Part shown: positions 11,601 through 27,878 of the stretch, piece by piece | Layout of the letters: every line of letters starts with the position of its first letter | Position numbering within the stretch: position 1 is the first letter of the stretch | Source of the DNA: a virus | Reading direction: 5' to 3' (one strand) | IMG/VR virus record: IMGVR_UViG_3300011114_001049 | Coordinates: 1-64,000 of that record | Length of the DNA stretch: 64,000 nucleotides | Notes under the pieces: generated by a model | Seen by the model: only the letters and a program-made list of their open reading frames with translations | The model's database searches: none | Told to the model about the DNA's origin: nothing | Made by a program: the position numbers and the translations under genes

Positions 11601-11659
11601 GGTCTCGTAAATATATTTTAGGAAAAGCATTACCCATTTGGATATTATGGTTATATTTA
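11601..11659 (+). promoter_or_regulatory. Early promoter 1 (GGTCTC box + TATATTTA)
   Basis: GGTCTC at 11601-11606, 45 bases, then TATATTTA at 11652-11659 and the leader CTTATAACTTAAAA. ATG follows 24 bases later. First of the array. Confidence 0.8.
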
Positions 11660-11682
11660 CTTATAACTTAAAACTTAAAGAA

Positions 11683-11817
11683 ATGAAAACTTTATTAAAC
11701 TTATTATTACAATTTATGGGATTAGCAATGGTTGCTTTTGGTAATAGCCTAGGTCTGTTACTACTTATACCAGCCTTCGTTCAATTGGTTAGAATGGACA
11801 TGGCTGAAGAGAGCTAA
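11683..11817 (+). CDS. 44-aa hydrophobic peptide
   Basis: Starts MKTLLNLLLQFMGLAMV and ends F-V-Q-L-V-R-M-D-M-A-E-E-S. One long hydrophobic stretch (residues 4-36) predicts a small membrane protein. The start is fixed by its position 24 bases after the TATATTTA box, the usual distance here; a strong terminator follows 20 bases after the stop. Function unknown; small early membrane proteins of phages often modulate host envelope or superinfection. Confidence 0.75.
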   Translation: MKTLLNLLLQFMGLAMVAFGNSLGLLLLIPAFVQLVRMDMAEES

Positions 11818-11836
11818 CGGTCACTAATTTAGGAGA

Positions 11837-11863
11837 GGGTCGGCTTATGTCGGCCCTTTTTTT
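11837..11863 (+). terminator. Rho-independent terminator
   Basis: GGGTCGGC-TTAT-GTCGGCCC hairpin (8 pairs with two G-T pairs) followed by seven T. The same hairpin family recurs at 16734, 18524 and 20124. Confidence 0.85.
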
Positions 11864-11942
11864 GTGAGGTTAGTTTAGTAAACATCTGTTATATCTAATT
11901 GGCTATGGTCTCTTAGCTTCAGATTGGATACGTATTGGCCAT

Positions 11943-11963
11943 GGTCTCTTAGCTTCAGAGACC
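11943..11963. repeat. GGTCTCT-N7-AGAGACC inverted repeat
   Basis: Perfect 7-7-7 inverted repeat with spacer TAGCTTC. A half copy with the same spacer lies at 11907-11920. Possible operator or RNA hairpin. Confidence 0.7.
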
Positions 11964-12022
11964 CCGTCAACTAGATTAAGCTTGCTGGTTACTTGGAAAA
12001 ATAGATTGGATTTATAGGACGA

Positions 12023-12081
12023 GGTCTCTAAGATTTATTTCCTAAAACGCATTACCCATTTGGATATTATGGTTATATTTA
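12023..12081 (+). promoter_or_regulatory. Early promoter 2
   Basis: GGTCTC 12023-12028, 45 bases, TATATTTA 12074-12081; ATG 24 bases later. Confidence 0.8.
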
Positions 12082-12104
12082 CTTATAACTTAAAAACAAT
12101 TAAC

Positions 12105-12350
12105 ATGAACTTAAAACAGGTATCACCTACAGTATTGCGCTCTAGGTTAAAGAACGAAGTAATTCAGTTTGCTTTTAAAAAGGTAGACGGCTCGTTGAGA
12201 ACGGCAGTCGGAACAACTAACTTAAGTACGATTCCAGTAGAGAGTCATCCTACTGGTAAGCGTGAAGCTTCTGAAAAACAGGTTAACTTCTTTGACTTGG
12301 AAAAGAAGGAATGGAGAAGCGTAAGTTCCTCACGTGAAATATACATCTGA
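12105..12350 (+). CDS. DUF2693-like SH3-barrel small protein, copy 1
   Basis: 81 aa, MNLKQVSPTVLRSRLKNEV. The ATG at 12105 is chosen over an in-frame ATG inside the promoter. The segment V-x-F-x-F-x-K-x-D-G-S-L-R-T-A-V-G-T-T-N-L followed by F-D-L-E-K-K-E-W-R-S-V matches the DUF2693 family seen in Bacteroidota phages and mobile elements. A paralogue lies at 19322-19570, sharing D-G-S-L-R-T-A-V-G-T-T-N-L-S exactly. Biochemical role unknown. Its stop overlaps the next ATG (ATGA-type overlap), implying coupling. Confidence 0.85.
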   Translation: MNLKQVSPTVLRSRLKNEVIQFAFKKVDGSLRTAVGTTNLSTIPVESHPTGKREASEKQVNFFDLEKKEWRSVSSSREIYI

Positions 12351-12511
12351 TGAGCATTTTAAAATTCAGTGATGGAGTCCAGATAGATACTTCTGGGCCC
12401 ATCAGATCGCTCCACCTAGCCGACGGTTGGTATGTTGTAGGTAACGGTTTTTTAATTCCAGTAAAGGATGAGGTTGACGCTGAGCTCGTGATTAAGAAGC
12501 TTACGGGTTAG
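12350..12511 (+). CDS. Small protein with DGWYVVG motif
   Basis: 53 aa: starts MSILKFSDGVQIDTSG, middle I-R-S-L-H-L-A-D-G-W-Y-V-V-G-N-G-F-L-I-P-V. It is predicted to be a small all-beta protein. Starts on the last base of the upstream DUF2693-like gene, so the pair forms a two-gene operon under early promoter 2, closed by the terminator at 12534. Function unknown. Confidence 0.7.
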   Translation: MSILKFSDGVQIDTSGPIRSLHLADGWYVVGNGFLIPVKDEVDAELVIKKLTG

Positions 12512-12533
12512 TATAAATCGGGATAGTGTTAGG

Positions 12534-12556
12534 GGCAGGCGAGAGTCTGCCTTTTT
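12534..12556 (+). terminator. Rho-independent terminator
   Basis: GGCAGGC-GAGA-GTCTGCC hairpin followed by TTTTT, 23 bases after the stop of the 53-aa gene. Confidence 0.8.
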
Positions 12557-12602
12557 GGTTTAATGAAGTTTACTCCGTAGTAGGATCCACGCTGCAGGTT
12601 GG

Positions 12603-12627
12603 GGTCTCTAAGAATTCCACAGAGACC
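12603..12627. repeat. GGTCTCT/AGAGACC inverted repeat
   Basis: Perfect 7-base arms with an 11-base spacer, between a terminator and the next promoter. ACTCCGTAG lies just upstream (12572-12580). Confidence 0.65.
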
Positions 12628-12678
12628 CGATCCACTGGATCTTTGCACCCGATTCCAGGAATCTTGCACTGTCTAGGT

Positions 12679-12737
12679 GGTCTCGCAAATATATTTTAGG
12701 AAACGCATTACGGATTGGAGTATTATAGTTATATTTA
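12679..12737 (+). promoter_or_regulatory. Early promoter 3
   Basis: GGTCTC 12679-12684, 45 bases, TATATTTA 12730-12737; ATG 24 bases later. Confidence 0.8.
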
Positions 12738-12760
12738 CTTATAACTTAAAAACTTGATAT

Positions 12761-12940
12761 ATGAATAAGAGAAAACAAATTGAAAAGGCAGAAGCATTCC
12801 TAAAGCTTTATGGATTTACCCAAGAAGATTATGTAGTTTCCCTACAGGGTCCCACTATAATTCTCTCGATTAGTGGTAATCAAAAGATGGATGGAAACCT
12901 AAAGAACGAATTATTAAACATAGGTATGCTGATCCTGTAA
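12761..12940 (+). CDS. Small uncharacterised early protein
   Basis: 59 aa, MNKRKQIEKAEAFLKLYGF. The first 35 residues (A-E-A-F-L-K-L-Y-G-F-T-Q-E-D-Y-V-V-S-L-Q-G-P-T-I-I-L) are closely similar to the start of the 14830 gene (L-L-E-D-Y-G-F-T-N-K-D-Y-T-I-S-L-P-G-P-T-L-L-F). The two are therefore paralogues, and this copy appears intact. A terminator follows at 12955. Role unknown. Confidence 0.7.
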   Translation: MNKRKQIEKAEAFLKLYGFTQEDYVVSLQGPTIILSISGNQKMDGNLKNELLNIGMLIL

Positions 12941-12954
12941 TAAAAGTTTAAGTA

Positions 12955-12979
12955 AGCCGGTTTAAATACCGGCTTTTTT
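12955..12979 (+). terminator. Rho-independent terminator
   Basis: AGCCGGT-TTAAAT-ACCGGCT hairpin with T-tract. Confidence 0.85.
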
Positions 12980-12995
12980 AGCACGTAACTTTGCA

Positions 12996-13016
12996 GGTCT
13001 CTGAAGTGTAGAGACC
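12996..13016. repeat. GGTCTCT-N7-AGAGACC inverted repeat
   Basis: Perfect 7-7-7 inverted repeat with spacer GAAGTGT. Confidence 0.7.
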
Positions 13017-13074
13017 CCGTCTACTGGATTAATTGTTTTAACACTTGGAAAAATAGATTGGATTTATAGGACGA

Positions 13075-13133
13075 GGTCTCGCAAATATATTTTAGGAAAC
13101 GCATTACGGATTGGAGTATTATAGTTATATTTA
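13075..13133 (+). promoter_or_regulatory. Early promoter 4
   Basis: GGTCTC 13075-13080, 45 bases, TATATTTA 13126-13133; ATG 25 bases later. From the GGTCTC box down to TATATTTA it is nearly identical to promoter 3. Confidence 0.8.
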
Positions 13134-13157
13134 CTATATAACTTAAAAACAAACAAC

Positions 13158-13295
13158 ATGAAAAAAGATTTGGTTTTAATCGCGTTTCAGGTATGGGCAG
13201 CTGCACTAATGTTGATACTTGTAGTTTCAATCGGATATGCTGTTTGGTCGGTATGTACGGGTAACTATTCGGGCACCGCTTGCCGAGAGTTTTAG
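13158..13295 (+). CDS. 45-aa single-pass membrane peptide
   Basis: MKKDLVLIAFQVWAAALMLI start with one hydrophobic helix (residues 5-30) and a polar tail with two cysteines (S-V-C-T-G-N-Y-S-G-T-A-C-R-E-F). The tail Cys pair could form a disulphide if periplasmic. Followed by a terminator 20 bases downstream. Function unknown. Confidence 0.7.
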   Translation: MKKDLVLIAFQVWAAALMLILVVSIGYAVWSVCTGNYSGTACREF

Positions 13296-13315
13296 ATAAC
13301 TTCCATCGTGAGTAA

Positions 13316-13339
13316 GGGTCCTGCTGAAGGGCCCTTTTT
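13316..13339 (+). terminator. Rho-independent terminator
   Basis: GGGTCC-TGCTGAA-GGGCCC hairpin with T-tract. Confidence 0.75.
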
Positions 13340-13369
13340 AGTTTTAGGATAATTTAGTATAATAACAAT

Positions 13370-14167
13370 ATGAAAGAAGAAATATACGAGCAGATAGGGA
13401 GTCTGTGTAGAGCAAAAAACCTAGGCACAAGTTATCGTAACACAGATAAGCCAACCCCTCGTGTCCAGTGGATCGAGACTCTGCTCCAAAGATTAGGCAT
13501 AGCCTATGAGCTGGACGAATGGCACCGCACCAGTGGTCAGCGTTGCTGGAACATCTATATACACTCCGTAGTAGAGAGTCCGATCGTAATCATGGCTCAT
13601 CACGATATTGTAAATCCAGCGAGTGATAATGCGAACGATAACTCAGCTTCAATAATCAATGCGATTGCAACCAAACTGCAGAGACCAGAAGTCATGCTAG
13701 TCTTGACCGATGGAGAAGAAGTCGGCGGACTAGGCGCGGCTCGTTATGCAAAACTTGTTCTGAATAGATTATTACCTCGACCCGTTTGGGTACTCAATTT
13801 CGAACTTACGGGTCGAGGCGGTAAGAGCTGGTTTATCGGTGATAATATAGAAGGTCCGCTGAAGAGATATCTAGTAGAGGAGCATGGCGCGGAGCTAGTC
13901 AGTGTTCCGTTTAACGATTCAGTTATAATGCGGAGAGAAGGTATTGACTCTTGCGTAATTAACCCGTTGCCAAAGGACGAGCATGGAAAGTTTGAATTAT
14001 GGCGGTTAGGAGTATGTCATAGCCTAGCCGACACAGTCGATGAGGTCTCCACTGGGGAGATGAAGGAATTTGTTGAAGAGGTAGTTTTACCGATTATCGA
14101 CGGTTGGAAAAGACCAGCGGTTGGGCGATGGGCAAAGATCTTGAAGTGGTCCCGGTCTCGCAAATAA
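13370..14167 (+). CDS. M28-family zinc peptidase
   Basis: 265 aa. Metal-binding pattern of M28 aminopeptidases: A-H-H-D at 76-79, N-D-N-S-A-S with D90, D-G-E-E-V-G-G with E116/E117 (general base and ligand), N-F-E at 145, and C-H-S-L-A-D-T with H217. Length suits a minimal catalytic domain. It has no signal peptide, so it probably acts in the cytoplasm during infection, as an exopeptidase on host or phage peptides (inference). The upstream box ATAATTTAGTAT differs from the standard early promoter and recurs before 28809. Promoter 5 lies inside its last codons. Confidence 0.85.
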   Translation: MKEEIYEQIGSLCRAKNLGTSYRNTDKPTPRVQWIETLLQRLGIAYELDEWHRTSGQRCWNIYIHSVVESPIVIMAHHDIVNPASDNANDNSASIINAIATKLQRPEVMLVLTDGEEVGGLGAARYAKLVLNRLLPRPVWVLNFELTGRGGKSWFIGDNIEGPLKRYLVEEHGAELVSVPFNDSVIMRREGIDSCVINPLPKDEHGKFELWRLGVCHSLADTVDEVSTGEMKEFVEEVVLPIIDGWKRPAVGRWAKILKWSRSRK

Positions 14168-14212
14168 GTTTTGGGGAACGCATACAACGAATATCCAAAT
14201 TGGTTATATTTA
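14154..14212 (+). promoter_or_regulatory. Early promoter 5
   Basis: GGTCTC 14154-14159 lies within the end of the M28 peptidase gene; 45 bases, TATATTTA 14205-14212; ATG 26 bases later. The sequence between is nearly the standard one, which suggests the peptidase C-terminus was created by cassette insertion. Confidence 0.75.
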
Positions 14213-14237
14213 CTTTTAACTTAAAAACTTTAAAACT

Positions 14238-14576
14238 ATGAAACTAATAAAAGACCTAGGTCCAAGCTACTTCATCTTTGGTAACAAGGGTAACGTGTGG
14301 AGTAACACCGCACACGCCTACAAGTCAGGTAAAGGTAACCTATGTAATACCCCAGCCTTAAGTACTAATCACGCTAGAATCGAGGGAATAGATGAAGTAG
14401 GTTGTCCGCGCTGTCTAGAAGAGATCGCTAAACTTAGGGACTGTTCTATTTGTGGAGAGTCCTATGGAAGGTACGGTAACACTGCAGAACCAGTAAACGG
14501 CGGTAGATGTTGCGACTCATGCAACCTAGAGAAAGTAATTCCTGCAAGACTCATCGCAGCCTTCAATAGCAATTAA
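14238..14576 (+). CDS. Cys-rich zinc-binding protein
   Basis: 112 aa. Multiple Cys pairs: G-C-P-R-C (res 53-57), D-C-S-I-C-G-E-S-Y-G, R-C-C-D-S-C-N, a layout typical of one or two zinc ribbons. The N-terminal half contains W-S-N-T-A-H-A-Y and A-L-S-T-N-H. Possible RNA/DNA-binding or anti-host protein; no specific family recognised. Terminator follows at 14606. Confidence 0.75.
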   Translation: MKLIKDLGPSYFIFGNKGNVWSNTAHAYKSGKGNLCNTPALSTNHARIEGIDEVGCPRCLEEIAKLRDCSICGESYGRYGNTAEPVNGGRCCDSCNLEKVIPARLIAAFNSN

Positions 14577-14605
14577 GTATTTTAAATATACATTTTACAA
14601 AGAAA

Positions 14606-14632
14606 AGGGTTCCAACAGTGAGCCCTTTTTTT
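14606..14632 (+). terminator. Rho-independent terminator
   Basis: GGGTTC-CAACAGT-GAGCCC hairpin followed by seven T. Confidence 0.75.
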
Positions 14633-14674
14633 GCGTCAAGTCACTCCGTAGTGTACACCTAGCAGGTCTGCACA

Positions 14675-14695
14675 GGTCTCTCAAGACCAGAGACC
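14675..14695. repeat. GGTCTCT-N7-AGAGACC inverted repeat
   Basis: Perfect 7-7-7 inverted repeat, spacer CAAGACC. An ACTCCGTAG copy lies 24 bases upstream (14643-14651). Confidence 0.7.
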
Positions 14696-14748
14696 AGTAT
14701 GGATTAAACAACTATGCGGACACTTGCCTAACCAGTGCAGTTGACCTG

Positions 14749-14807
14749 TGTCTCCCAACTATATTTTATGAAGGGTATACAACAGATACCCTAATTGGTT
14801 ATATTTA
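14749..14807 (+). promoter_or_regulatory. Early promoter 6
   Basis: TGTCTC 14749-14754 (one mismatch), 45 bases, TATATTTA 14800-14807; ATG 23 bases later. Confidence 0.75.
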
Positions 14808-14829
14808 ACCTTAACTTAAAATACTTACT

Positions 14830-15087
14830 ATGAATAAGAAGATCGAAAGGATTGAAACACTTCTAGAAGATTATGGATTTACTAATAAAGATTATACTAT
14901 TTCCTTACCTGGTCCAACACTACTCTTTGCGAGGAGCGGACAGATTAAACTTAAAAAAATAAAGGTGTGTCGACTTATTTTTCCAGCCCGTCTAGACAGG
15001 GTAGGGTCTCATAGATATATTTTTAGTAATGTGTACAGCGCATTCCGAATTTGGTTATATTTACTTAATAACTTAAAAACAGAAAGT
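14830..15087 (+). pseudogene. 3'-truncated early gene running into a promoter
   Basis: Starts MNKKIERIETLLEDYGFTN and resembles the intact 12761-12940 paralogue for about 45 residues. After about 14950-14980 the reading frame runs through promoter 7 (GGTCTC 15005, TATATTTA 15056) and, by chance in frame, into the next gene, giving a 137-codon chimera ending at 15243. The frame stays open, so a fusion protein could be made. The promoter and usual ATG spacing argue that 15088-15243 is the real downstream gene. Confidence 0.65.
15005..15063 (+). promoter_or_regulatory. Early promoter 7
   Basis: GGTCTC 15005-15010, 45 bases, TATATTTA 15056-15063; ATG 25 bases later. It lies inside the open frame of the truncated 14830 gene. 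Confidence 0.8.
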
Positions 15088-15243
15088 ATGTATTCACTAG
15101 ACTGTAATTATTACACAAAGGAGTTCTCAACCATTGATGAGCTTTTGGGAGACGTTGTCACCAACGGAATGGACCCCAACTACGAGATCACACGCAACGG
15201 CCAACCTACTGGCGAGATGGCGATTGACCTGATCGAATTTTAA
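15088..15243 (+). CDS. Small uncharacterised early protein
   Basis: 51 aa, MYSLDCNYYTKEFSTIDELL. Start fixed by its own promoter 25 bases upstream. Compact alpha/beta sequence, G-M-D-P-N-Y-E-I-T-R-N-G, then an acidic end. Phage proteins of this type are often annotated only as hypothetical. Followed by a terminator at 15267. Confidence 0.7.
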   Translation: MYSLDCNYYTKEFSTIDELLGDVVTNGMDPNYEITRNGQPTGEMAIDLIEF

Positions 15244-15266
15244 TTTCCTGTATTATCCAGGCGCGA

Positions 15267-15293
15267 GGGCAGGTGGAGACGCTTGCCCTTTTT
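15267..15293 (+). terminator. Rho-independent terminator
   Basis: GGGCA(G) / (T)TGCCC arms with T-tract. Confidence 0.7.
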
Positions 15294-15330
15294 CTTGTAC
15301 TTGATTCCGGGAATCTTGTCTAGTTGTGCG

Positions 15331-15389
15331 GGTCTCTAAGATTTATTTTCGTAAACGCATACAACGTATTTGGATAATGGTTATATTTA
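15331..15389 (+). promoter_or_regulatory. Early promoter 8
   Basis: GGTCTC 15331-15336, 45 bases, TATATTTA 15382-15389; ATG 25 bases later. Confidence 0.8.
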
Positions 15390-15413
15390 CTATATAACTT
15401 AAAAACAAACAGT

Positions 15414-15632
15414 ATGAAAAATCTTAGAGAAAAGTATGAAAATGCCAGAGCTCTCTTAAAAGCCGGCAAACGTGAAGAGGCAAGCGCTCTCCTTAATTTT
15501 GGAATCTACCAATTGGCTAGCGCTACTTTAGAAGGAATTCCTCAAGATCAAGTCGTAGAGGGAGCAACTGTCGATCGCTGGAAGGAACGCTTCTGGTTCG
15601 AGTTAGAAGCCAACGACCTGTTGGAAGGGTAG
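15414..15632 (+). CDS. Small helical early protein
   Basis: 72 aa, MKNLREKYENARALLKAGKR. Helix-turn-helix-like pair of helices with A-R-A-L-L-K-A-G-K-R-E-E-A-S-A-L-L resembling a single TPR-type unit, then W-K-E-R-F-W-F-E-L-E. No function assigned. Terminator immediately downstream at 15651. Confidence 0.7.
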   Translation: MKNLREKYENARALLKAGKREEASALLNFGIYQLASATLEGIPQDQVVEGATVDRWKERFWFELEANDLLEG

Positions 15633-15650
15633 TCGATAGGACTCCAGTAA

Positions 15651-15674
15651 GGCTCGAGAAATCGGGCCTTTTTT
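15651..15674 (+). terminator. Rho-independent terminator
   Basis: GGCTCGA-GAAA-TCGGGCC hairpin and six T. Confidence 0.85.
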
Positions 15675-15728
15675 GTAAACCTATTTAGAGACATGAGTAT
15701 AATAGGAATATAAACTTATATTTAAAAA

Positions 15729-16019: not shown

Positions 16020-16079
16020 GGGTCTCCCAACTATATTTTCCTAGTTTTGAATTTTGTATTAAGAAAAAAGGGTTGCAAA

Positions 16080-16137
16080 GCTCTCGCAAAAAAAGTAGAT
16101 AAAAATTGTTATTTGTTATATTTTTTAGTTATATTTA
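16080..16137 (+). promoter_or_regulatory. Early promoter 10, divergent copy
   Basis: CTCTCGCAAAAAAAG replaces GGTCTCGCAAA; TATATTTA 16130-16137, ATG 23 bases later. An orphan GGTCTCCCAACTATATTTTC at 16020 looks like the upstream part of another promoter without its TATATTTA. Confidence 0.6.
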
Positions 16138-16159
16138 ACTATAACTAAAACGCAGAAAG

Positions 16160-16366
16160 ATGGACAAGAAAGAAAAAGATACAGATATTAAAATCATGGC
16201 AGAGTGTCGACCGTGGTCATCTCTCACCTGTGGCTCGCTCAGGGCAATGATGACTATATGTAAGAATCGTGGCTTAAAATATTATGATTCGGGAAAAATA
16301 GCTAAATGGGTAAATAACAACGAGCTCTCGATACTCCTGGAACGGGAGCTCGCGTCTCGCAACTAG
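16160..16366 (+). CDS. Small basic early protein
   Basis: 68 aa, MDKKEKDTDIKIMAECRPWS. The central I-C-K-N-R-G-L-K-Y-Y-D-S-G-K-I-A-K-W-V-N-N resembles a compact nucleic-acid-binding helix pair, but no family is assigned. The following gene starts 3 bases after its stop. Confidence 0.65.
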   Translation: MDKKEKDTDIKIMAECRPWSSLTCGSLRAMMTICKNRGLKYYDSGKIAKWVNNNELSILLERELASRN

Positions 16367-16368
16367 TG

Positions 16369-16530
16369 ATGAAAAAGATAGAGGCAACTATGCAGGAAAT
16401 ATGGGCGGCAACTCGACCTGTAGTACAGAAGAACAAGAAGAAGTATTCACGTAAAAAAAAGAAAGAAGATGATTGGAAAGAAGAACCTATTAAGAACTCA
16501 GTCAGAGACAGAGGGCATGACCAAGATTAG
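16369..16530 (+). CDS. Lys-rich 53-aa peptide
   Basis: MKKIEATMQEIWAATRPVVQ followed by a strongly basic run (K-N-K-K-K-Y-S-R-K-K-K-K-E-D-D-W). It begins right after the 16160-16366 stop and its 3' end overlaps the next start by 14 bases, so it fits an operon of three. Probably nucleic-acid-binding or disordered; low recognisability. Confidence 0.55.
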   Translation: MKKIEATMQEIWAATRPVVQKNKKKYSRKKKKEDDWKEEPIKNSVRDRGHDQD

Positions 16531-16755: not shown

Positions 16756-16878
16756 TGTTGTTTTACTCCGTAGTAAACCCCTGCCCGCCTAGGCCAGGTA
16801 GAGACCCCTTCACCAGGCTGCAGGATCCCAATTTGCGTATAAATATTTTTTAAAATCAAGGTTGGATTTAGAGGACGC

Positions 16879-16936
16879 TGTCTCGCAAAAAAGTTTTAAC
16901 AGAATTTTCAGGTGTCAATTATTTTGGTTATATTTA
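16879..16936 (+). promoter_or_regulatory. Early promoter 11
   Basis: TGTCTC 16879-16884, 44 bases, TATATTTA 16929-16936; ATG 24 bases later. First copy with the GCAAAAAAGTTTT-type middle. Confidence 0.75.
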
Positions 16937-16959
16937 CTTATAACTTAAAAACTTAAAAT

Positions 16960-17148: not shown

Positions 17149-17151
17149 ATC

Positions 17152-17567: not shown

Positions 17568-17657
17568 TGACCAGTGGAAAGGCGTCTCCCAAAATTATTA
17601 GAGACCGGTGTAGTCCAGCAGATTCCTTGGAAAAAACAGACCGGCTCCAGTGGATGG

Positions 17658-17715
17658 AGTCTCTGAAAAACTTTTCAACAGGATTGTTAAGTATGAAAAA
17701 GATTGGTTATATTTA
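17658..17715 (+). promoter_or_regulatory. Early promoter 12
   Basis: AGTCTC 17658-17663, 44 bases, TATATTTA 17708-17715; ATG 21 bases later. Confidence 0.75.
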
Positions 17716-17735
17716 CTTATACTTAAAAACTAAAC

Positions 17736-18585: not shown

Positions 18586-18644
18586 GGTCTCTAAGAAATA
18601 TTTTCAACAGGATTGTCAAGTATAGAAAGAATTGGTTATATTTA
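18586..18644 (+). promoter_or_regulatory. Early promoter 13
   Basis: GGTCTC 18586-18591, TTG 18613-18615, then 21 bases to TATATTTA 18637-18644; 45 bases separate the GGTCTC and TATATTTA boxes. Clearest example of the three-box layout. Confidence 0.85.
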
Positions 18645-18667
18645 CTTATAACTTAAAACTAGAAGAC

Positions 18668-19240: not shown

Positions 19241-19299
19241 GGTCTCGCAAAAAAGTTTTCAACAGGATTGTCATGGTTAAAAAGAATTGGTTATATTTA
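19241..19299 (+). promoter_or_regulatory. Early promoter 14
   Basis: GGTCTC 19241-19246, 45 bases, TATATTTA 19292-19299; ATG 23 bases later. Confidence 0.8.
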
Positions 19300-19321
19300 C
19301 TTATACTTAAAAACTTAAAAC

Positions 19322-20145: not shown

Positions 20146-20186
20146 TGTCGTTTTACTCCGTAGTAAACCTTACTACTGGGTGCAAA

Positions 20187-20244
20187 GGTCTCTCAAACTT
20201 TTTATGGCAGGATTGTCATGGTTAGGAGTAATTGGTTATATTTA
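20187..20244 (+). promoter_or_regulatory. Early promoter 15
   Basis: GGTCTC 20187-20192, 44 bases, TATATTTA 20237-20244; ATG 25 bases later. Confidence 0.8.
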
Positions 20245-20268
20245 CTTATAACTTAAAAACAAAAGCAG

Positions 20269-20511
20269 ATGACTAAAGAAGAATTTAAAGCAGGCGTTCT
20301 ATTCCTAATCAACGTAAAGAACGATTTCCAATTTGATTATAATAGCCCAGGATATTTAGGATTCCTCAACTGTGGAGAGGATATCACAGACGATCCAGGA
20401 TTTATGATAGTTGTCAATAATCAGGAAGAGTTTGAGCCAATCTTGAGTGGACTGAGGCTTACCACAGAAGAAGGTATCAACGCAGAAGAAACAGTATTCA
20501 TTCTAATCTAA
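20269..20511 (+). CDS. Small uncharacterised early protein
   Basis: 80 aa, MTKEEFKAGVLFLINVKNDF. Mixed alpha/beta, acidic, with Y-N-S-P-G-Y-L-G-F-L-N-C-G. First of four tandem genes (20269-21119) under promoter 15. No family recognised. Confidence 0.7.
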   Translation: MTKEEFKAGVLFLINVKNDFQFDYNSPGYLGFLNCGEDITDDPGFMIVVNNQEEFEPILSGLRLTTEEGINAEETVFILI

Positions 20512-20521
20512 AACAGGACCC

Positions 20522-20728
20522 ATGGAAGAAAAAATCTTAGATACCCTAAAGAAACTTAAAAGAGAGAAGAAGTACATCGCTCTTCAATTACATCCAGCGA
20601 TTGGCCACACAACTATTGAGAAGGAAGGAAATACTCTTCGTATCAATGAAGGAAGAGACGGCAAATTCGAAGGGGTAAGCGAGTCTTTCTATGACGAGAT
20701 GGTAAACCAGTTTGATTCACGAAACTAA
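20522..20728 (+). CDS. Small uncharacterised early protein
   Basis: 68 aa, MEEKILDTLKKLKREKKYIA. Helical N-terminus and beta-like remainder (G-H-T-T-I-E-K-E-G-N-T-L-R-I-N-E-G-R-D). Second gene in the promoter-15 operon. Confidence 0.65.
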   Translation: MEEKILDTLKKLKREKKYIALQLHPAIGHTTIEKEGNTLRINEGRDGKFEGVSESFYDEMVNQFDSRN

Positions 20729-20733
20729 ACGCT

Positions 20734-20889
20734 ATGGACTTTTACAAATGTAAACAATCAGGAGACGTATTCACTGAGGACGAGATGTTAGACGAAGTAG
20801 ATGGGGATGATAACTTAGATTCTTTCTACCTCATCGGCGATTTTGAGACACATGAAGAAGCAGAACAATTTCTAAAAACACTAAGATGA
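20734..20889 (+). CDS. Small acidic early peptide
   Basis: 51 aa, MDFYKCKQSGDVFTEDEMLD, strongly acidic (D-E-V-D-G-D-D-N-L-D). The C-terminal H-E-E-A-E-Q-F-L-K-T-L helix is followed by a stop that overlaps the next ATG (ATGA), supporting that it is translated. Function unknown. Confidence 0.65.
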   Translation: MDFYKCKQSGDVFTEDEMLDEVDGDDNLDSFYLIGDFETHEEAEQFLKTLR

Positions 20890-21119
20890 CACAAGAACAA
20901 GCACAAGTAGTAGCACAAATCTTAGAGAGATTTGATTTTGATAAGGTACTTAAACACATGCAATCAGTAGATTGGAAGTGGTTCGATGAGGTGCCTGATA
21001 TGGATGATATTAAAGGTACCGCAACTCGACTTCTAGTCGAAGCTCAAATGGACCCGCAGGATGTTGTGTCAATGGGAACAGGCGGATTCAGAGTTTATAA
21101 ACTTCCTTGGGGATTATAG
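20886..21119 (+). CDS. Small uncharacterised early protein
   Basis: 77 aa, MTQEQAQVVAQILERFDFDK. Helical, with W-K-W-F-D-E-V-P-D-M-D-D-I-K and the C-terminal G-G-F-R-V-Y-K-L-P-W-G-L. Phage proteins with a T-G-G-F-x-V beta ending after an A-T-x-L-L-x-E-A helix are common but uncharacterised. Last gene of the operon. Confidence 0.7.
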   Translation: MTQEQAQVVAQILERFDFDKVLKHMQSVDWKWFDEVPDMDDIKGTATRLLVEAQMDPQDVVSMGTGGFRVYKLPWGL

Positions 21120-21170
21120 CTTACTTTCTCCATCCAACGAAGTGGAAGCTTCTAGCCTGGCAGCGGGCCG

Positions 21171-21229
21171 CGTCTCTTAACTTTTTATCCCGCCCAATTG
21201 TCAAGATTAGAAAAGATTGGTTATATTTA
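21171..21229 (+). promoter_or_regulatory. Early promoter 16
   Basis: CGTCTC 21171-21176, 45 bases, TATATTTA 21222-21229; ATG 24 bases later. Confidence 0.75.
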
Positions 21230-21252
21230 CTTATAACTTAAAGACCCATAAG

Positions 21253-21680: not shown

Positions 21681-21739
21681 GGTCTCGCAAAAAAGTTTGG
21701 GACCAGATTGTACTTGTATTAGATAATTGGTTATATTTA
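21681..21739 (+). promoter_or_regulatory. Early promoter 17
   Basis: GGTCTC 21681-21686, 45 bases, TATATTTA 21732-21739; unusual leader AGTGTATAAAAAAAATAAAAG; ATG 25 bases later. Confidence 0.75.
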
Positions 21740-21763
21740 CAGTGTATAAAAAAAATAAAAGTT

Positions 21764-21985: not shown

Positions 21986-22040
21986 ACCTATTAAAAAGGC
22001 TTTCGTATATTAGCGTATAAAGAAAGAAGAATAAAAAGTT

Positions 22041-22082
22041 ATTGACAGGATTGTACATTGTCGAAACAAATAGTTATATTTA
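22041..22082 (+). promoter_or_regulatory. Early promoter 18 (no GGTCTC box)
   Basis: TTG 22051-22053, 21 bases, TATATTTA 22075-22082. The stretch AAAAAGTTATTGACAG and its continuation are almost identical to promoter 21, suggesting duplication. Confidence 0.7.
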
Positions 22083-22107
22083 CTTATAACTTAAAAACAT
22101 AAAGATT

Positions 22108-22572: not shown

Positions 22573-22578
22573 TGCACA

Positions 22579-22635
22579 GGTCTCGCAAAAAATGTTGACC
22601 AGATTGTACCAGTATAAAAGAATTGGTTATATTTA
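22579..22635 (+). promoter_or_regulatory. Early promoter 19
   Basis: GGTCTC 22579-22584, 43 bases, TATATTTA 22628-22635; ATG at 22657 is 22 bases later. Confidence 0.75.
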
Positions 22636-22656
22636 CTTATACAACAATTGATGACT

Positions 22657-24156
22657 ATGGAAAAGATACAGATAAAGCAGATTCCAGCCGAGTACGTGGC
22701 AAGAGCAAAAGGAACCGTCTACGATAGAAAGAGATTAGCCGGCCTGCGTGAACTACCTGAAATAGTAGTTAGTCGTTTATCGCAAGACCGGTCGCTTACT
22801 GTTTTAAAGGAGGTTGCTCTTCGTACTGACCTTACACTAGAACAGGTGAAGACACTAAACTCGCCGTCTAATATAGTAAACATGTACGAGCTTAGACGAA
22901 GCCTATTTCGTAATCATAGCATAAGTCACGATTGTGTAAAGTACCTGATTAGAGAGGAAGGTTTAGTTGAATCTGTAATCTTAGCTAACCCAAACATAAA
23001 GGCTAAAGAGTTTATTGGGATCGTGAAGGAGCAGATTGAATTAGAAAGAAGTCGTTACTCCGTAGATAGAATAATAAAGTCAGCGTTCTCTAATCAAGGG
23101 ATAGGTAATACTGTACTCATTGCTCTTTTAGAATTTTTGAAAGATTGTTATCACATAAAGTCAGAGCACAATTATGAAAGTCTAGTTCAAATACTCGTTA
23201 CTCACAACGATTCGCTTACTCCTCGGTCGATTGAATGGTTGTGGAAGCATGCAAATACTCGAATAAAGAAGAGAGGTGGTATCCAGTCTAAGCCACTTAT
23301 TAAATGTATAACAGCTCACCATAACTGTAGTGATGAACTCATTAATAAAATCATATTAGGATTAGAGGATGAGTACGTTGGCGACCTGTTTGGGTATGCG
23401 CAAGTAGAGATTAGAGAGAGTTATGTTGCAAGTAGAGAAGTCGTAAATTTACTGGCTCCACTATGTATCAATGGAACTGACCAAGTGATTAAGAATACTT
23501 CCATATTTATTGCTAATCACATGGGAGAGGTTGAGCTTACTGACAGCATAACACAGCAGCTTATCTCAATTAGAGATAAAGAAGTTCAACTTGCTTTGCT
23601 AAAGAATGGAGTCCTTGCTGGCACTAGCCAAGAACGTGAAGCAGTTGATATTATAGTATCGTCTACTGACGAATTGGAGAGAGAGGAATGGAGGTACCTA
23701 GAAAATTCTAATTTAATTACAGAGGATCACCTGATAGCCCTGACTTCACATCGTTCTTGGAGAGTTCGGCAGCTTGTAGCTGAGTCTACTCGAGTTCCTT
23801 TAGCTCAACTTGAAGTACTTGCAAATGATGGCGACTCAGACGTAGTCAGAAGTGCCACGCAGAATGGGAGATACCACCTGGTAAAACACTCCGTAGAGTA
23901 TCAAAGAAGAGCAGAGTTAAACTGTGTAGCTATGGCAAGAATACATAGGGCATGTAGCGAAACGATTGAGGCAATCGCGGCTGACTCCTATGCTAAAGAA
24001 TACACCGGCTTTTCAGAATTCGGCAAAGCGATAGAACTGTTAGCCTCGCCTGAATTCTCAACTTTCATTGAAACATTCAGCTATAAAGATCGCAGAGAAC
24101 TAATGAAAGATGGCATTGACCTAGCTACTTTAAATCTTCTTAGTCAATTTTTTTAA
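22657..24156 (+). CDS. Large HEAT/LRV-like solenoid protein
   Basis: 499 aa from ATG 22657, the start at the usual distance from the promoter (22651 also possible). All-helical, with repeats of about 30-45 residues: L-A-N-P-N-I-K-A-K-E-F, H-N-D-S-L-T-P-R-S-I-E-W-L, S-T-R-V-P-L-A-Q-L-E-V-L-A-N-D-G-D-S-D-V. These resemble leucine-rich-variant and HEAT solenoids. It is by far the largest gene of the early array and carries two copies of ACTCCGTAG within its coding sequence. It probably binds a host or phage protein; partner unknown. Confidence 0.75.
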   Translation: MEKIQIKQIPAEYVARAKGTVYDRKRLAGLRELPEIVVSRLSQDRSLTVLKEVALRTDLTLEQVKTLNSPSNIVNMYELRRSLFRNHSISHDCVKYLIREEGLVESVILANPNIKAKEFIGIVKEQIELERSRYSVDRIIKSAFSNQGIGNTVLIALLEFLKDCYHIKSEHNYESLVQILVTHNDSLTPRSIEWLWKHANTRIKKRGGIQSKPLIKCITAHHNCSDELINKIILGLEDEYVGDLFGYAQVEIRESYVASREVVNLLAPLCINGTDQVIKNTSIFIANHMGEVELTDSITQQLISIRDKEVQLALLKNGVLAGTSQEREAVDIIVSSTDELEREEWRYLENSNLITEDHLIALTSHRSWRVRQLVAESTRVPLAQLEVLANDGDSDVVRSATQNGRYHLVKHSVEYQRRAELNCVAMARIHRACSETIEAIAADSYAKEYTGFSEFGKAIELLASPEFSTFIETFSYKDRRELMKDGIDLATLNLLSQFF

Positions 24157-24161
24157 CAGGA

Positions 24162-24193
24162 TTGTCAAGTATAGAAAAGATTGATTATATTTA
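24162..24193 (+). promoter_or_regulatory. Early promoter 20 (no GGTCTC box)
   Basis: TTG 24162-24164, 21 bases, TATATTTA 24186-24193, beginning just after the upstream stop. ATG is 37 bases later. Confidence 0.65.
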
Positions 24194-24229
24194 CTAAGAA
24201 CAAATGGTATAACTTGAGTATAAGATAGT

Positions 24230-24538
24230 ATGCAACCTACTGATAATCAAATGAATGATCGAAGTATTCCCTGCTTTAGCTTGGGAGCCATGGATGTAAG
24301 TTCATTTACGACAACTCATCGTGCACTTATCTCAAGCGCAGTAGAGTCGGCAGTATACTGGGCAGTCTCGAATAAATTAGAAGAAGTAGAAGTATTTGAA
24401 ATAAAGGAATTGGACGTCGTCTTCTCATTAAAGAAGGAGGAATTTAGGACAGCATTAAACGGCTGTATTGAATACTCAATATCAATAGAAGATTACGAAA
24501 AGTGCGTAGCTATTAATAAACTAAAAACTAATTTATGA
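24230..24538 (+). CDS. Small protein with UVR-like C-terminus
   Basis: 102 aa, MQPTDNQMNDRSIPCFSLGA. Ends C-I-E-Y-S-I-S-I-E-D-Y-E-K-C-V-A-I-N-K-L-K, close to the UVR-like endings of 15729-16019 and 25947-26207. The stop overlaps the following start. Role unknown. Confidence 0.7.
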   Translation: MQPTDNQMNDRSIPCFSLGAMDVSSFTTTHRALISSAVESAVYWAVSNKLEEVEVFEIKELDVVFSLKKEEFRTALNGCIEYSISIEDYEKCVAINKLKTNL

Positions 24539-24762
24539 GTAAGCAGAGAGCATTAGGATTTAAAAAGATTGCATGTAAAAAATGTAACGAACTCGTAGAC
24601 AAGGTAGACGAGCAGGCAGAATCAATAACCTGTAGCAAGTGTGTTCAGACTGAACTACGCGGATACCCTGATATCACTCGTGAAGAGTGGTTTAGATTAG
24701 ATACGATACGTAAAGAGAAAGAGCTTGAATTAGAAGAGTCTGCTTCTGGCAAAGAAGAATAA
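24535..24762 (+). CDS. Small zinc-ribbon protein
   Basis: 75 aa, MSKQRALGFKKIACKKCNEL. C-K-K-C (res 14-17) and C-S-K-C (res 33-36) form a four-Cys zinc ribbon; the rest is a charged helix with Y-P-D-I-T-R-E-E-W-F. Overlaps 24230-24538 by four bases. Possible nucleic-acid-binding regulator. Confidence 0.75.
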   Translation: MSKQRALGFKKIACKKCNELVDKVDEQAESITCSKCVQTELRGYPDITREEWFRLDTIRKEKELELEESASGKEE

Positions 24763-24778
24763 AAAGTTATTGACAGCA

Positions 24779-24810
24779 TTGTACATTGTCGAAACAAATA
24801 GTTATATTTA
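24779..24810 (+). promoter_or_regulatory. Early promoter 21 (no GGTCTC box)
   Basis: TTG 24779-24781, 21 bases, TATATTTA 24803-24810; drives the sigma factor gene. About 50 bases match promoter 18 almost exactly. Confidence 0.7.
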
Positions 24811-24837
24811 CTACATAAACCAATAAAACTAAAGATC

Positions 24838-25557
24838 ATGGGCTTTGAAACATCAGAAGGACTTCCAAAATACTTTCGTGAAATAAGAAAGAGCGGAGGT
24901 GTAAGTAAAGAAAGAGAGAAGGTATTGGCTATTGAGATAGCTAACGGTAGCACAACGGCAGTCCGCGAACTTGCTGAAAGCAATCTATTACTTGTAGCTA
25001 GAATTGCAAACCGCCATAAGGGGCAAGGGGTTCCCATAGACGACTTGATACAGGAAGGTAATATTGGACTACTTGAAGCTGCTCGTAACTTTCGACCAAA
25101 TCACGAAAGAGGTTTCGTACCCTATGCCAGCCTGTGGATTCGTAAGTATATTAACGAGACTGTTGCTAAGACTGGCCGAGTTGTCCGCTTACCCCACAAT
25201 CAGGAGTATGAGATCTATAAAGCAAAGATGAGAGGCGAAGATCCAGACGTGCCTACTCGTGTAAGCCTAGACAAGCCGATCAGCGAAGACAGCGAATACA
25301 CGTTAGCCGACCTGATCTTGGTGTCACGGCCTGAAGTTGAGATAGAGATTGAGCTGGAAGAGATTAAGTTCAAGGTAGGTATCGCAGTAAAATCCTTGAA
25401 GACCCGTGACCGTGAGATAATATTTGATTATTTTGGAATCGACCGTGAGTACTCCTTAAACGCGAAAGAGATCGCCGAGAAGCACTCAATGACAAACGTT
25501 AGAATAAGTCAGATCGTTCGCTCCTCACTAGAAAAAATGAAGAGCTCAATGGTTTGA
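24838..25557 (+). CDS. Phage-encoded sigma-70 family RNA polymerase sigma factor
   Basis: 239 aa. Region 1.2/2 spans residues 5-112, with E-S-N-L-L-L-V-A-R-I-A, D-D-L-I-Q-E-G-N-I-G-L-L-E-A-A (core-binding) and F-V-P-Y-A-S-L-W-I-R-K-Y-I (promoter -10 recognition). R-L-P-H at 117-120 opens region 3. Region 4 is at 184-237 (L-K-T-R-D-R-E-I-I-F-D-Y-F-G ... N-A-K-E-I-A-E-K). It resembles the short RpoD of Bacteroidota (about 290 aa) but is smaller. It likely redirects host polymerase, either to the early array (amplifying itself) or to a later class; late T4-like boxes need a different sigma. Confidence 0.92.
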   Translation: MGFETSEGLPKYFREIRKSGGVSKEREKVLAIEIANGSTTAVRELAESNLLLVARIANRHKGQGVPIDDLIQEGNIGLLEAARNFRPNHERGFVPYASLWIRKYINETVAKTGRVVRLPHNQEYEIYKAKMRGEDPDVPTRVSLDKPISEDSEYTLADLILVSRPEVEIEIELEEIKFKVGIAVKSLKTRDREIIFDYFGIDREYSLNAKEIAEKHSMTNVRISQIVRSSLEKMKSSMV

Positions 25558-25612
25558 TCCATAGCTGTAGAGAGTCTCAGCTTTTAATAATAAACATTTA
25601 CTCCGTAGTAAG

Positions 25613-25960
25613 ATGAAGGATATATTAGCATTTAATGGAGAAGACGAGGTCTTCTTAACCGAATTAGAACTAGAAGACTTAGTTAGGAACAAAACTAAAG
25701 AATTCGTAGAATTATTCCAGTATACCGCAGTCTATCTAGACGTGATAAACGAATTAGAGAAAGACCTAGGTAGTGCACTGTGCTCGATCAACTCTTCTCC
25801 AATGTCAATCGAACGTAAGAAGAGACTTGATGAAGGTCACTATGTCTTGATTGAGTTATTGGTAGAGCACCTGGGTTTTGATATAGCTGGGATAATAATT
25901 GCAGATACTTGTAACGCAATAAACTTAGATAAAATAAGAAGCAAAAATGGCAAAAGATAA
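25613..25960 (+). CDS. Uncharacterised helical protein downstream of sigma
   Basis: 115 aa, MKDILAFNGEDEVFLTELEL. Acidic and helical (L-E-L-E-D-L-V-R-N-K-T-K-E-F). It lies 55 bases after the sigma gene with ACTCCGTAG between them, and overlaps the next gene by 14 bases. Being in the sigma operon it might modulate polymerase, but there is no motif evidence. Confidence 0.65.
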   Translation: MKDILAFNGEDEVFLTELELEDLVRNKTKEFVELFQYTAVYLDVINELEKDLGSALCSINSSPMSIERKKRLDEGHYVLIELLVEHLGFDIAGIIIADTCNAINLDKIRSKNGKR

Positions 25961-26207
25961 TGCACTAGATCGTATACTTAGGGAGATGAGTGAGATCGAC
26001 AGGGTCGTCTGTATGGAAGTAAAGTACCTTGCAATCATGCATGAGCAGGACAAACCCGTCTCGACCGAGCAAGAAAGCAGAGAGCTAGTTGGCTCGATTG
26101 TCGACCTCATCGAATTCTTTGAACCTCAAGAAAGATACGAAGAGTGCGCACAACTAGTAAAGATACTTAATAAGATAAAGAAGCAATGCGGCCAGAAGTA
26201 TACGTAG
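25947..26207 (+). CDS. Small protein with UVR-like C-terminus
   Basis: 86 aa, MAKDNALDRILREMSEIDRV. Ends F-E-P-Q-E-R-Y-E-E-C-A-Q-L-V-K-I-L-N-K-I-K, the third UVR-like ending in this early region. Overlaps genes on both sides, so it is translated as part of the sigma operon. Function unknown. Confidence 0.7.
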   Translation: MAKDNALDRILREMSEIDRVVCMEVKYLAIMHEQDKPVSTEQESRELVGSIVDLIEFFEPQERYEECAQLVKILNKIKKQCGQKYT

Positions 26208-26437
26208 TTATCGGTAACGGGGAAGAAGGAGAGTGGGAAGAGTCTCTGCAGAAATCTTTGGGTGTCTGTAATAATGCTAAGAAAGCATATGATATTGCTT
26301 TATTTCTAGGCCAGATATCTAGACCTGACTTGGGTTATCGTAAAGTATTAGAGACCCTAAACAAGAAAGGTGCAGTCACTGTCAAGCAGAGAGAAGGAGA
26401 GCAGGCTGCAACAATAGTAAAAGTAAAAAAATATTAG
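26186..26437 (+). CDS. Small uncharacterised protein
   Basis: 83 aa, MRPEVYVVIGNGEEGEWEES. Starts with a beta strand (V-Y-V-V-I-G-N-G) and continues with helices and a basic C-terminus. Overlaps the preceding gene by 22 bases. No family recognised. Confidence 0.6.
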   Translation: MRPEVYVVIGNGEEGEWEESLQKSLGVCNNAKKAYDIALFLGQISRPDLGYRKVLETLNKKGAVTVKQREGEQAATIVKVKKY

Positions 26438-26439
26438 CC

Positions 26440-26601
26440 ATGACCGATCGAGAAAAACTAAAAGCAGTCGATGATTATATTAGAGAGAGTAAAGAGCTCT
26501 ATTCGCAGGCAATACACGATACCGGCAACGAGATGGAAAAAACTATGTGGGCAAGCATTATAACTGCGCTCGACGGTGTTGGAGAGATTCTAGAAAGGTA
26601 A
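26440..26601 (+). CDS. Small helical peptide
   Basis: 53 aa, MTDREKLKAVDDYIRESKEL. Two amphipathic helices. The start is two bases after the previous stop, and the GGTCTC box of promoter 22 begins right after its stop. Function unknown. Confidence 0.6.
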   Translation: MTDREKLKAVDDYIRESKELYSQAIHDTGNEMEKTMWASIITALDGVGEILER

Positions 26602-26602
26602 G

Positions 26603-26660
26603 GGTCTCGCAAAAGTTTTTCCGCAGGATTGTCAAGATTAGGGAATTATAGTTATATTTA
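26603..26660 (+). promoter_or_regulatory. Early promoter 22
   Basis: GGTCTC 26603-26608, 44 bases, TATATTTA 26653-26660; ATG 27 bases later. Confidence 0.8.
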
Positions 26661-26686
26661 CCTATAACCAATTAAACTTAATAAAG

Positions 26687-26791
26687 ATGGATAAGGAAAC
26701 TTGTAAACACGAAAAAACATACGTAGCAGTACGCCACGTATCAGGGATTAAGCTAGTAAAATGTTCTCATTGCGGTAAAGTAATTAATTAA
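26687..26791 (+). CDS. 34-aa zinc-knuckle peptide
   Basis: M-D-K-E-T-C-K-H-E-K-T-Y then K-C-S-H-C-G-K-V-I-N. C6, H8, C27 and C30 are well placed for one zinc ion. Start 27 bases after TATATTTA. Such minimal zinc peptides are frequent in phage early regions; target unknown. Confidence 0.7.
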   Translation: MDKETCKHEKTYVAVRHVSGIKLVKCSHCGKVIN

Positions 26792-26797
26792 AGAGAT

Positions 26798-27190
26798 ATG
26801 AAAGCAGAATTTAACAGACACAATCGAGATTTTAATTGTAGTTTTACAATTGAGTTCAACGTAAAGAATCCTACCATACCTTTGACCGATAGACACATCG
26901 AGCTCATGGAGTCAGAATGGCTGCATGGAGACCTAACAAATAATTATTCAACTGATTGCTTTGAAGAGATAATGGAGAGTAATTATTCTTTTATTGAAGA
27001 CTGGAGTTTTGCCGGTCGCAGCAACGGCTGGTGGGTTCTAATTTGCAAAGGTTCAGAGTCACAGGTTAGAGCTAGTTCTCTTCGCCGAATCGAAAGAATT
27101 GTTGAAGACTATTTTAGCAAGTACGGCAAAATGATAATTAATAATTTTGAAATTTTTATAAAGGAGAGAGAAGAGGCAGAGATCTCTTAA
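26798..27190 (+). CDS. Uncharacterised early protein
   Basis: 130 aa, MKAEFNRHNRDFNCSFTIEF. N-terminal beta hairpin, then S-F-A-G-R-S-N-G-W-W-V-L-I-C-K and a basic helix. The S-N-G-W-W/S-N-G-G-W type motif is seen in uncharacterised phage proteins. Six bases after the zinc-knuckle peptide, under promoter 22. Confidence 0.7.
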   Translation: MKAEFNRHNRDFNCSFTIEFNVKNPTIPLTDRHIELMESEWLHGDLTNNYSTDCFEEIMESNYSFIEDWSFAGRSNGWWVLICKGSESQVRASSLRRIERIVEDYFSKYGKMIINNFEIFIKEREEAEIS

Positions 27191-27238
27191 TTTTTATTTG
27201 ACCCAATTGTCAAGATTAAAAAGAAATTATTATATTTA
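27181..27238 (+). promoter_or_regulatory. Early promoter 23
   Basis: GATCTC 27181-27186 overlaps the end of the upstream gene; 44 bases, TATATTTA 27231-27238; ATG 29 bases later. Confidence 0.65.
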
Positions 27239-27266
27239 CTTATAACCAATTAAAAACTGAACGCAT

Positions 27267-27692
27267 ATGTCAACTAGAAGCAGAATAGGAATGGAGTTTA
27301 CCGACGAGAACGGTACTCGACTAGTTAAATCAATCTACTGTCACTTCGACGGATATCCGGAAGGAGTCGGGCAGAAACTACAGAACTTTTTTCTAGATCG
27401 GGAAAAGGTCGACGCACTCGTCTCGCTGGGAGATATTTCTTTTCTTGAGAAGGAGATCGTAGCGAAGGGCAATCACTCATTTGACCAGCCAGAAAGAGGA
27501 GTGACTGTTGCCTACCATCGAGACCGTGGAGAAGATTACTGTGCACCGCGAATCGATGCAGGAGTAGATGCCTTCTTTGAATCAGATTTTGAAGAGTACG
27601 GTTATGTCTTTAGCGAAGAAGGAGAGTGGCTAATTGGAGGAGTCGAAGATATCGCCATCCCTTTACCATACGCCATTTCGCTGAGAGAATAA
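27267..27692 (+). CDS. Phage hypothetical protein, MSTRS/YCHFDGYPEGVG family
   Basis: 141 aa, MSTRSRIGMEFTDENGTRLV. S-I-Y-C-H-F-D-G-Y-P-E-G-V-G-Q-K-L (res 24-40) and L-V-S-L-G-D-I-S-F-L are hallmarks of a family found in many phages of unrelated hosts and never assigned a function. Acidic C-terminal half. A strong terminator follows at 27747. Confidence 0.85.
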   Translation: MSTRSRIGMEFTDENGTRLVKSIYCHFDGYPEGVGQKLQNFFLDREKVDALVSLGDISFLEKEIVAKGNHSFDQPERGVTVAYHRDRGEDYCAPRIDAGVDAFFESDFEEYGYVFSEEGEWLIGGVEDIAIPLPYAISLRE

Positions 27693-27746
27693 GCTTAGGT
27701 CACGTCCAAGGCTAAGGCGCCCAACCCTTGGGCTGAACCATAAGAG

Positions 27747-27773
27747 AACCCGACTAGCTATCGGGTTTTTTTG
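27747..27773 (+). terminator. Rho-independent terminator
   Basis: AACCCGA-CTAGC-TATCGGGTT hairpin with seven T. Confidence 0.85.
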
Positions 27774-27809
27774 TGTGAGTCAACTTGGAAGCTAAAACCG
27801 GTGTGCATG

Positions 27810-27878
27810 GGTCTCTGGTTAAATGTGCAAAAAATAGTTCGCCAGATTGTCATAGTTAAAAGGAATTAGTTATATTTA
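27810..27878 (+). promoter_or_regulatory. Early promoter 24, box shifted by 10 bases
   Basis: GGTCTC 27810-27815, 55 bases, TATATTTA 27871-27878. The extra 10 bases equal about one helical turn, so the box stays on the same face of the DNA. Last standard copy of the array. Confidence 0.7.

Follow-up and report, generated by a model that had tools for sequence, protein, structure and literature searches.

Twenty-three promoter-like repeats as probable exchange points for gene cassettes in a T4-type phage

Why does a phage carry nearly the same sequence, in the same orientation, before one unit of small genes after another? This question is raised by an array at 11.6-27.9 kb of the virus record IMGVR_UViG_3300011114_001049, of which bases 1-64000 were analysed (hereafter the window, 64,000 nucleotides of a 100,274-base record). 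The record encodes a T4-type portal (Portal_T4 PF07230, E=2e-58), and the comparison of T4-like portals across phages also assigns this phage to the T4 type. Judged from its sequence, the array probably consists of 23 copies of a strong host-type promoter, each heading a small unit, and forms a cassette exchange zone similar to the promoter early stem-loops (PeSLs) of T4-like myoviruses. This PeSL-like system is new for this phage clade.

The first-pass annotation had claimed 23 promoter-like copies in this region. Exactly 23 TATATTTA boxes were found there, all on the + strand, from 11652 to 27871, where close to none would be expected by chance. The motif GGTTATATTTA with at most one mismatch has 25 matches in the window compared with a shuffle mean of 2.6, and the count of 23 boxes includes the copy at 27231. 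The full 24-mer TATATTTACTTATAACTTAAAAAC occurs exactly in only five places (none in shuffles) and ATAACTTAAAAAC in eight. The sequence-profile model that was built from the 23 modules, a check proposed by the first-pass annotation, was run over the rest of the 100-kb record and identified no further strong module there. It did show a weak partial 24th copy that lies outside the array and lacks the leader (10744-10802, + strand, 19.7 bits), as well as an antiparallel shadow at 16120-16167. The modules, all on the + strand, are as follows.

11601-11675, +, promoter module 1, subtype A, box 11652 (profile)
12023-12097, +, promoter module 2, subtype A, box 12074 (profile)
12679-12753, +, promoter module 3, subtype A, box 12730, UP-like match 14/14
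13075-13150, +, promoter module 4, subtype A, box 13126, UP-like match 14/14
14154-14228, +, promoter module 5, subtype A, box 14205 (profile)
14749-14823, +, promoter module 6, subtype A, box 14800, decayed-looking gene reads in frame through module 7
15005-15080, +, promoter module 7, subtype A, box 15056 (profile)
15331-15406, +, promoter module 8, subtype A, box 15382 (profile)
16079-16153, +, promoter module 9, divergent, box 16130 (profile)
16878-16952, +, promoter module 10, subtype B, box 16929, TTT replaces TTG
17657-17730, +, promoter module 11, subtype B, box 17708 (profile)
18586-18660, +, promoter module 12, subtype B, box 18637 (profile)
19241-19314, +, promoter module 13, subtype B, box 19292 (profile)
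20186-20260, +, promoter module 14, subtype B, box 20237, left edge of transferred cassette
21171-21245, +, promoter module 15, subtype B, box 21222, right edge of transferred cassette
21681-21755, +, promoter module 16, subtype B, box 21732 (profile)
22024-22098, +, promoter module 17, subtype B, box 22075 (profile)
22577-22650, +, promoter module 18, subtype B, box 22628 (profile)
24135-24208, +, promoter module 19, subtype B, box 24186, degenerate leader
24752-24827, +, promoter module 20, subtype B, box 24803, heads the sigma-factor operon
26602-26676, +, promoter module 21, subtype B, box 26653 (profile)
27180-27254, +, promoter module 22, subtype B, box 27231 (profile)
27820-27894, +, promoter module 23, subtype B, box 27871 (profile)

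When aligned on the box, the module reads GGTCTC (in this phage), an A/T tract, TTG(T), 21 bp, TATATTTAC, the leader TTATAACTTAAAAAC, and ATG. In Flavobacterium promoters, the -33/-7 elements are TTTG/TAnnTTTG and the -7 box occupies -12..-5 (PMC9723704; PMC6847099). The -7 box TATATTTA matches TAnnTTT in 23/23 copies, and on the Flavobacterium numbering the module TTG falls at -36..-34. The claim that TTG precedes the box by 21 nt in the later copies was borne out, with TTG in 14/15 copies from 16130 on and 0/8 of the first copies; the Bacteroidota expectation is TTG or TTTG at about 19-23 bp. An ATG usually 21-30 bases past the box had also been claimed, and 21/23 copies have it at 20-29 nt, the exceptions being 22628 (+15) and 24186 (true start of the open reading frame, ORF, at ~36 nt). 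The leader is degenerate in the last ~8 copies, the last third of the array. No Shine-Dalgarno-like motif precedes any of the 23 genes (0/23), and A predominates at -10..-13 of the leaders, as described for F. johnsoniae.

The A/T tract was scored against the E. coli UP-element consensus. It agrees at 14/14 constrained positions in three copies with a constant +2 bp shift, and a UP-like score of >=11 was reached in 11/23 copies compared with 0.6% of shuffles. The UP element is positioned at -60..-40 and is bound by alpha-CTD (PMC2613000), and a 2-bp shift is what one would predict for a complex placed as a whole 2 bp nearer (-33 instead of -35). The consensus, together with the UP-like element and the A-rich leader, supports the view that the modules are promoters fitted to a Bacteroidota host, and the promoter reading of the first-pass annotation thus held up. 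The modules differ from T4 early promoters (-35 TTGACA/TGn/-10 TATAAT) because no TGn precedes the box and subtype A has no -35-like TTG. A generic sigma70 scan was only slightly above shuffles.

Phage polymerases typically use long promoters of uniform sequence, and the modules might be read by a phage RNA polymerase that is carried in the virion or made early. This is extremely unlikely: the division into -33 and -7 parts, with a flexible element upstream, is that of a sigma-type promoter, and multisubunit RNA polymerase families gave no match in this and related records while their positive control was found. The search for single-subunit RNA polymerases was empty as well, but its positive control also went undetected.

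Two subtypes, at 11.6-15.4 kb and 16.9-27.9 kb, had been proposed, and leave-one-out position weight matrix scores separate eight A copies from 14 B copies with no overlap (copy 9 at 16130 was excluded as divergent). In subtype A, the first eight copies, the UP-like element is near-perfect and TTG is absent. Subtype B, the later copies, has TTG and a weaker UP-like element. In the related phages G001, G004, and G007 the A-like copies are found at the left end or close to it and the rest of the array is B-like, although G001 and G004 have a few B-like copies at that end as well; G002 and G009 have B-like copies only. On the simplest reading, the subtypes would represent a trade-off between two ways to bind polymerase.

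Do genes move at these promoters? Orthologous arrays were identified in at least seven related phage contigs, and the promoter core has numerous matches in other IMG/VR contigs. In G001, G002, and others, ~11-31 copies form an array that is bordered on one side by a divergent block and on the other by the same helicase gene; several of these contigs end inside the array, and its full extent is not visible in all. The relatives have a common backbone (the sigma operon, W2, W8-W10, W12, W13, W28, W38, W39, and W41) which is interrupted by differing cassettes. Comparison of cassette order, a test set beforehand, revealed no perfect synteny: gene adjacency is kept in 106/124 comparisons within cassettes vs 36/80 across a promoter (Fisher p=1e-9, with non-independent pairs).

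Evidence on breakpoints comes from near-identical pairs and from a single outlier cassette; the ends of BLAST blocks between diverged relatives were set aside since conserved promoters bias them. The near-identical phages exhibit seven insertions or deletions (indels), and in 5/7 both breakpoints lie inside the promoter module. The five short alleles are hybrids, in which the upstream half of one promoter (P1) is joined to the downstream half of another (P2). The upstream flank equals P1 at 29-30 of 30 positions in four cases and at 18 of 30 in the more diverged event E4, and the downstream flank equals P2 at 43-45 of 45. The pieces lost or gained are 302, 451, 860, 1167, and 1323 bp, and in event E5 the second promoter copy has the variant box TATAATTA. 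Altogether 12/14 breakpoints lie in the ~80-bp modules, which cover 7-13% of the sequence. The promoter copies at junctions differ at 18-37 of 75 positions and share identical stretches of apparently about 8-50 bp.

One whole cassette has also moved from promoter to promoter.

20191-21233, +, transferred or moved cassette W22-W25, 87-89% nucleotide identity to G001/G004, at a different locus there

Its proteins are 84-96% identical to those of G001/G004 compared with a median of 54%. Here the cassette precedes W28, whereas in G001/G004 it follows the sigma operon; W23 is an extra gene within the moved block. Identity climbs within -40..-20 of its own promoter and stops at about +13 in the next promoter. 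Hybrid promoters, transferred cassette, and adjacency test show exchange at promoter modules, in line with the T4 PeSL analogy that had been suggested for this array.

The promoters could be real and the exchange could still be ordinary illegitimate recombination, with selection removing the events that break genes. Intergenic sites are the tolerated ones, two events have only about 8-17 bp of homology at the crossover, and two of the seven indels have one breakpoint outside promoters. This explanation is rather unlikely, given that the breakpoints fall in modules and are not scattered over spacers, and that both parents have the module sequence in common at the junction. The density of breakpoints in the module, and not in the spacer, favours homology-directed crossover, so that homology between copies, and not selection alone, would cause the breakpoints.

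The units themselves are less uniform than had been described. Single-gene cassettes had been claimed, and about ten cassettes do hold one gene, but ~40 + strand ORFs share the 23 promoters, and many cassettes therefore have two to five genes. The genes in the array are mostly without family matches. No match was obtained in annotated phages by a DNA-level search, nor by a search with a 911-aa protein. Two pairs of paralogous cassettes are present in this phage, W2/W20 (56%) and the N-termini of W4/W8 (49%). The ORF at 14830-15243 (+), in the cassette of box 14800, runs in frame through promoter 15056 and is probably a paralogue of the 12761 gene that has decayed, with loss of its stop and terminator.

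The terminators said to lie between cassettes are clear in about 11 of the first 13 intervals but almost absent later.

11837-11863, +, example of an intrinsic terminator
near 12534, 12956, 13316, 14607, 15267, 15651, 16734, 17544, 18524, and 20122, further intrinsic terminators

The share of boxes with a terminator 40-260 bp upstream is 9/24 in this phage, 9-10 of 25-31 in G001, G004, and G002, and 7/11 in G007. This frequency is 2 to 2.7 times random and is not general. A covarying stem belonging to the promoter repeat was sought and not found. At the module start, GGTCTC is common in this phage and weak in relatives. Perfect inverted repeats GGTCTCT-N7-AGAGACC are present in spacers before promoters (12996-13016, 14675-14695, and others), and GGTCTC is distributed 36/22 by strand in the record, with the + strand copies mostly in the early region.

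How might such an array work? We propose that host RNA polymerase with the Bacteroidota primary sigma would read the TATATTTA box as a -7 element of the TAnnTTTG type. The second contact would be the -33 TTG in subtype B, and in subtype A the UP-like A/T element would offset the absent -33. Transcription would start about 4-5 nt past the box, giving A-rich leaders of ~19 nt without a Shine-Dalgarno motif. The promoters are probably strong and, by analogy, of the early class: the host polymerase would transcribe all units together after injection, namely ~40 small, mostly unknown genes and the phage sigma, and the sigma from unit 20 may then redirect later transcription. Recombination between promoter copies would delete, insert, or move whole units and leave a working promoter at the junction. 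Promoter-gene linkage would survive because all units share one ~75-bp starting sequence and one orientation.

Some points weigh against this account. The right half of the array is without terminators, selection against broken genes could contribute to the breakpoint clustering, and every copy has A at the final position of the -7 box, where the consensus has G. Subtype B agrees with E. coli-type sigma70 at 10/12, so that sequence alone does not settle which sigma is used. The phage also has a sigma of its own, which might read these promoters later in infection.

24838-25557, +, phage sigma-70-family factor with regions 2 and 4, inside the array

The modules could then be middle promoters that are read by this sigma instead of host early promoters. 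The gene is kept in relatives, the final A of the -7 box would suit such a reading, and subtype B resembles TTGACA/TATAAT. We consider this unlikely, as the -33/-7 geometry and the leader fit the host type, and something else must read module 20 first since the sigma gene is itself preceded by one such module. All relatives are also metagenome contigs in which repeats can be misassembled, and the hybrid junctions might be assembly errors. Yet most of the copies involved are only ~50-76% alike, the divergence of the junction copies and their short shared stretches speak against such errors, and several independent assemblies (L029, L047, L179, and L037) agree, which makes this explanation very unlikely.

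Which host would supply the polymerase? The host is probably a member of Flavobacteriales.

60795-61823, -, GFO/IDH/MocA oxidoreductase, 85-97% identical to Flavobacteriales/Crocinitomicaceae genes

This gene may be a recently acquired host gene or a host marker, and its identity to Flavobacteriales genes supports Bacteroidota as the host phylum, with the caveat that the top two matches could be phage contigs binned with host genomes.

The array is closed by a helicase gene.

28809-29891, +, helicase/recombinase-like ATPase

No strong UvsX-like match was found in the array phages, where the helicase matches only weakly. A serine-recombinase-like protein (30131-30823, -) has an N-terminal helix-turn-helix (Pfam HTH_17 weak, Resolvase) reminiscent of IS607 TnpA, and also adjoins the array in G001, G002, and G008 at 65-67%. 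A peptidase M28-like protein lies inside the array (13370-14167, +); its G002 homologue lies outside the array on the opposite strand. The phage record also has an asparagine-synthase/glutamine amidotransferase-type enzyme (L010:13229-14983, -).

A second repeated signal occupies the same ~19-kb region as the promoters. The ACTCCGTAG motif, listed as CTCCGTAG and mostly ACTCCGTAGT, has 14 copies on the + strand, none on the - strand, and none elsewhere in the 100-kb record.

12573, 13564, 14644, 15879, 16766, 18554, 20156, 23058, 23889, 25601, 29024, 30620, 30959, and 31298, +, ACTCCGTAG motif copies

The counts by strand (+/-) in relatives are 17/0 in G001, 19/1 in G002, and 16/0 in G005, and those with reversed arrays have 0/9 (G004) and 0/16 (G009). 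The motif is kept across the clade both in spacers and within genes. In the helicase gene, five phages share the motif codons TCC-GTA-GT without change, as fixed synonymous codons, between flanks that have diverged. An RNA hairpin at ACTCCGTAGT (pairs like TTTACT-CCGT-AGTAAA) exhibits no consistent covariation past the first flanking pair, and the sequence was therefore handled as a linear motif. An Rfam scan of the region gave no match at gathering level. We tentatively suggest that the array could be one half of a two-signal early-region system, in which ACTCCGTAG would act at the RNA or DNA level, in a way not described so far, to control early transcripts or recombination in the array.

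The findings in this work place exchange points for phage accessory genes at repeated promoters, with base-resolution junctions in natural populations of a clade far from T4. They lend support to the idea that the shuffling of promoter-bounded cassettes is a general means for T4-type phages to trade early genes, which are probably host-directed. There is demand for strong promoters as tools in Bacteroidota, and the ~75-bp promoters of the array are at hand for tests of UP-like elements and of what is required at -33/-7 there.

Comparable arrangements have been reported elsewhere. The haloarchaeal myovirus HGTV-1 has a repeated promoter-like motif before most ORFs of one genome side, which was proposed as a shuffling driver (PMC3950731). 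Its motif also heads genes and has been given a role in shuffling, but consists of an archaeal TATA box and an inverted repeat. To our knowledge, shuffling in HGTV-1 has not been tested with near-identical relatives. The early promoters of T4 are 'uber' UP/-35/TGn/-10 promoters (PMC2988021). They are likewise host-type, in multiple copies, with UP elements and conserved sequence that extends past the core, whereas the modules here have -33/-7 geometry, the TATATTTA box, no TTG in subtype A, and a very short A-rich leader without a Shine-Dalgarno motif. The closest parallel is the PeSLs, as far as they are described from Arbiol 2010 and Comeau 2014 in PMC4503421 and PMC5348500. Compared with that description, the promoter here is probably Bacteroidota-type and not E. 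coli sigma70, two zoned subtypes are present, the phage clade is far distant, terminators precede ~30-60% of promoters, and no conserved stem-loop was found in the repeat. Both systems exhibit many near-identical early-type promoters among small variable genes of a T4-type phage and genes that are exchanged at promoter boundaries, and the composite with upstream terminators is seen here for part of the copies.

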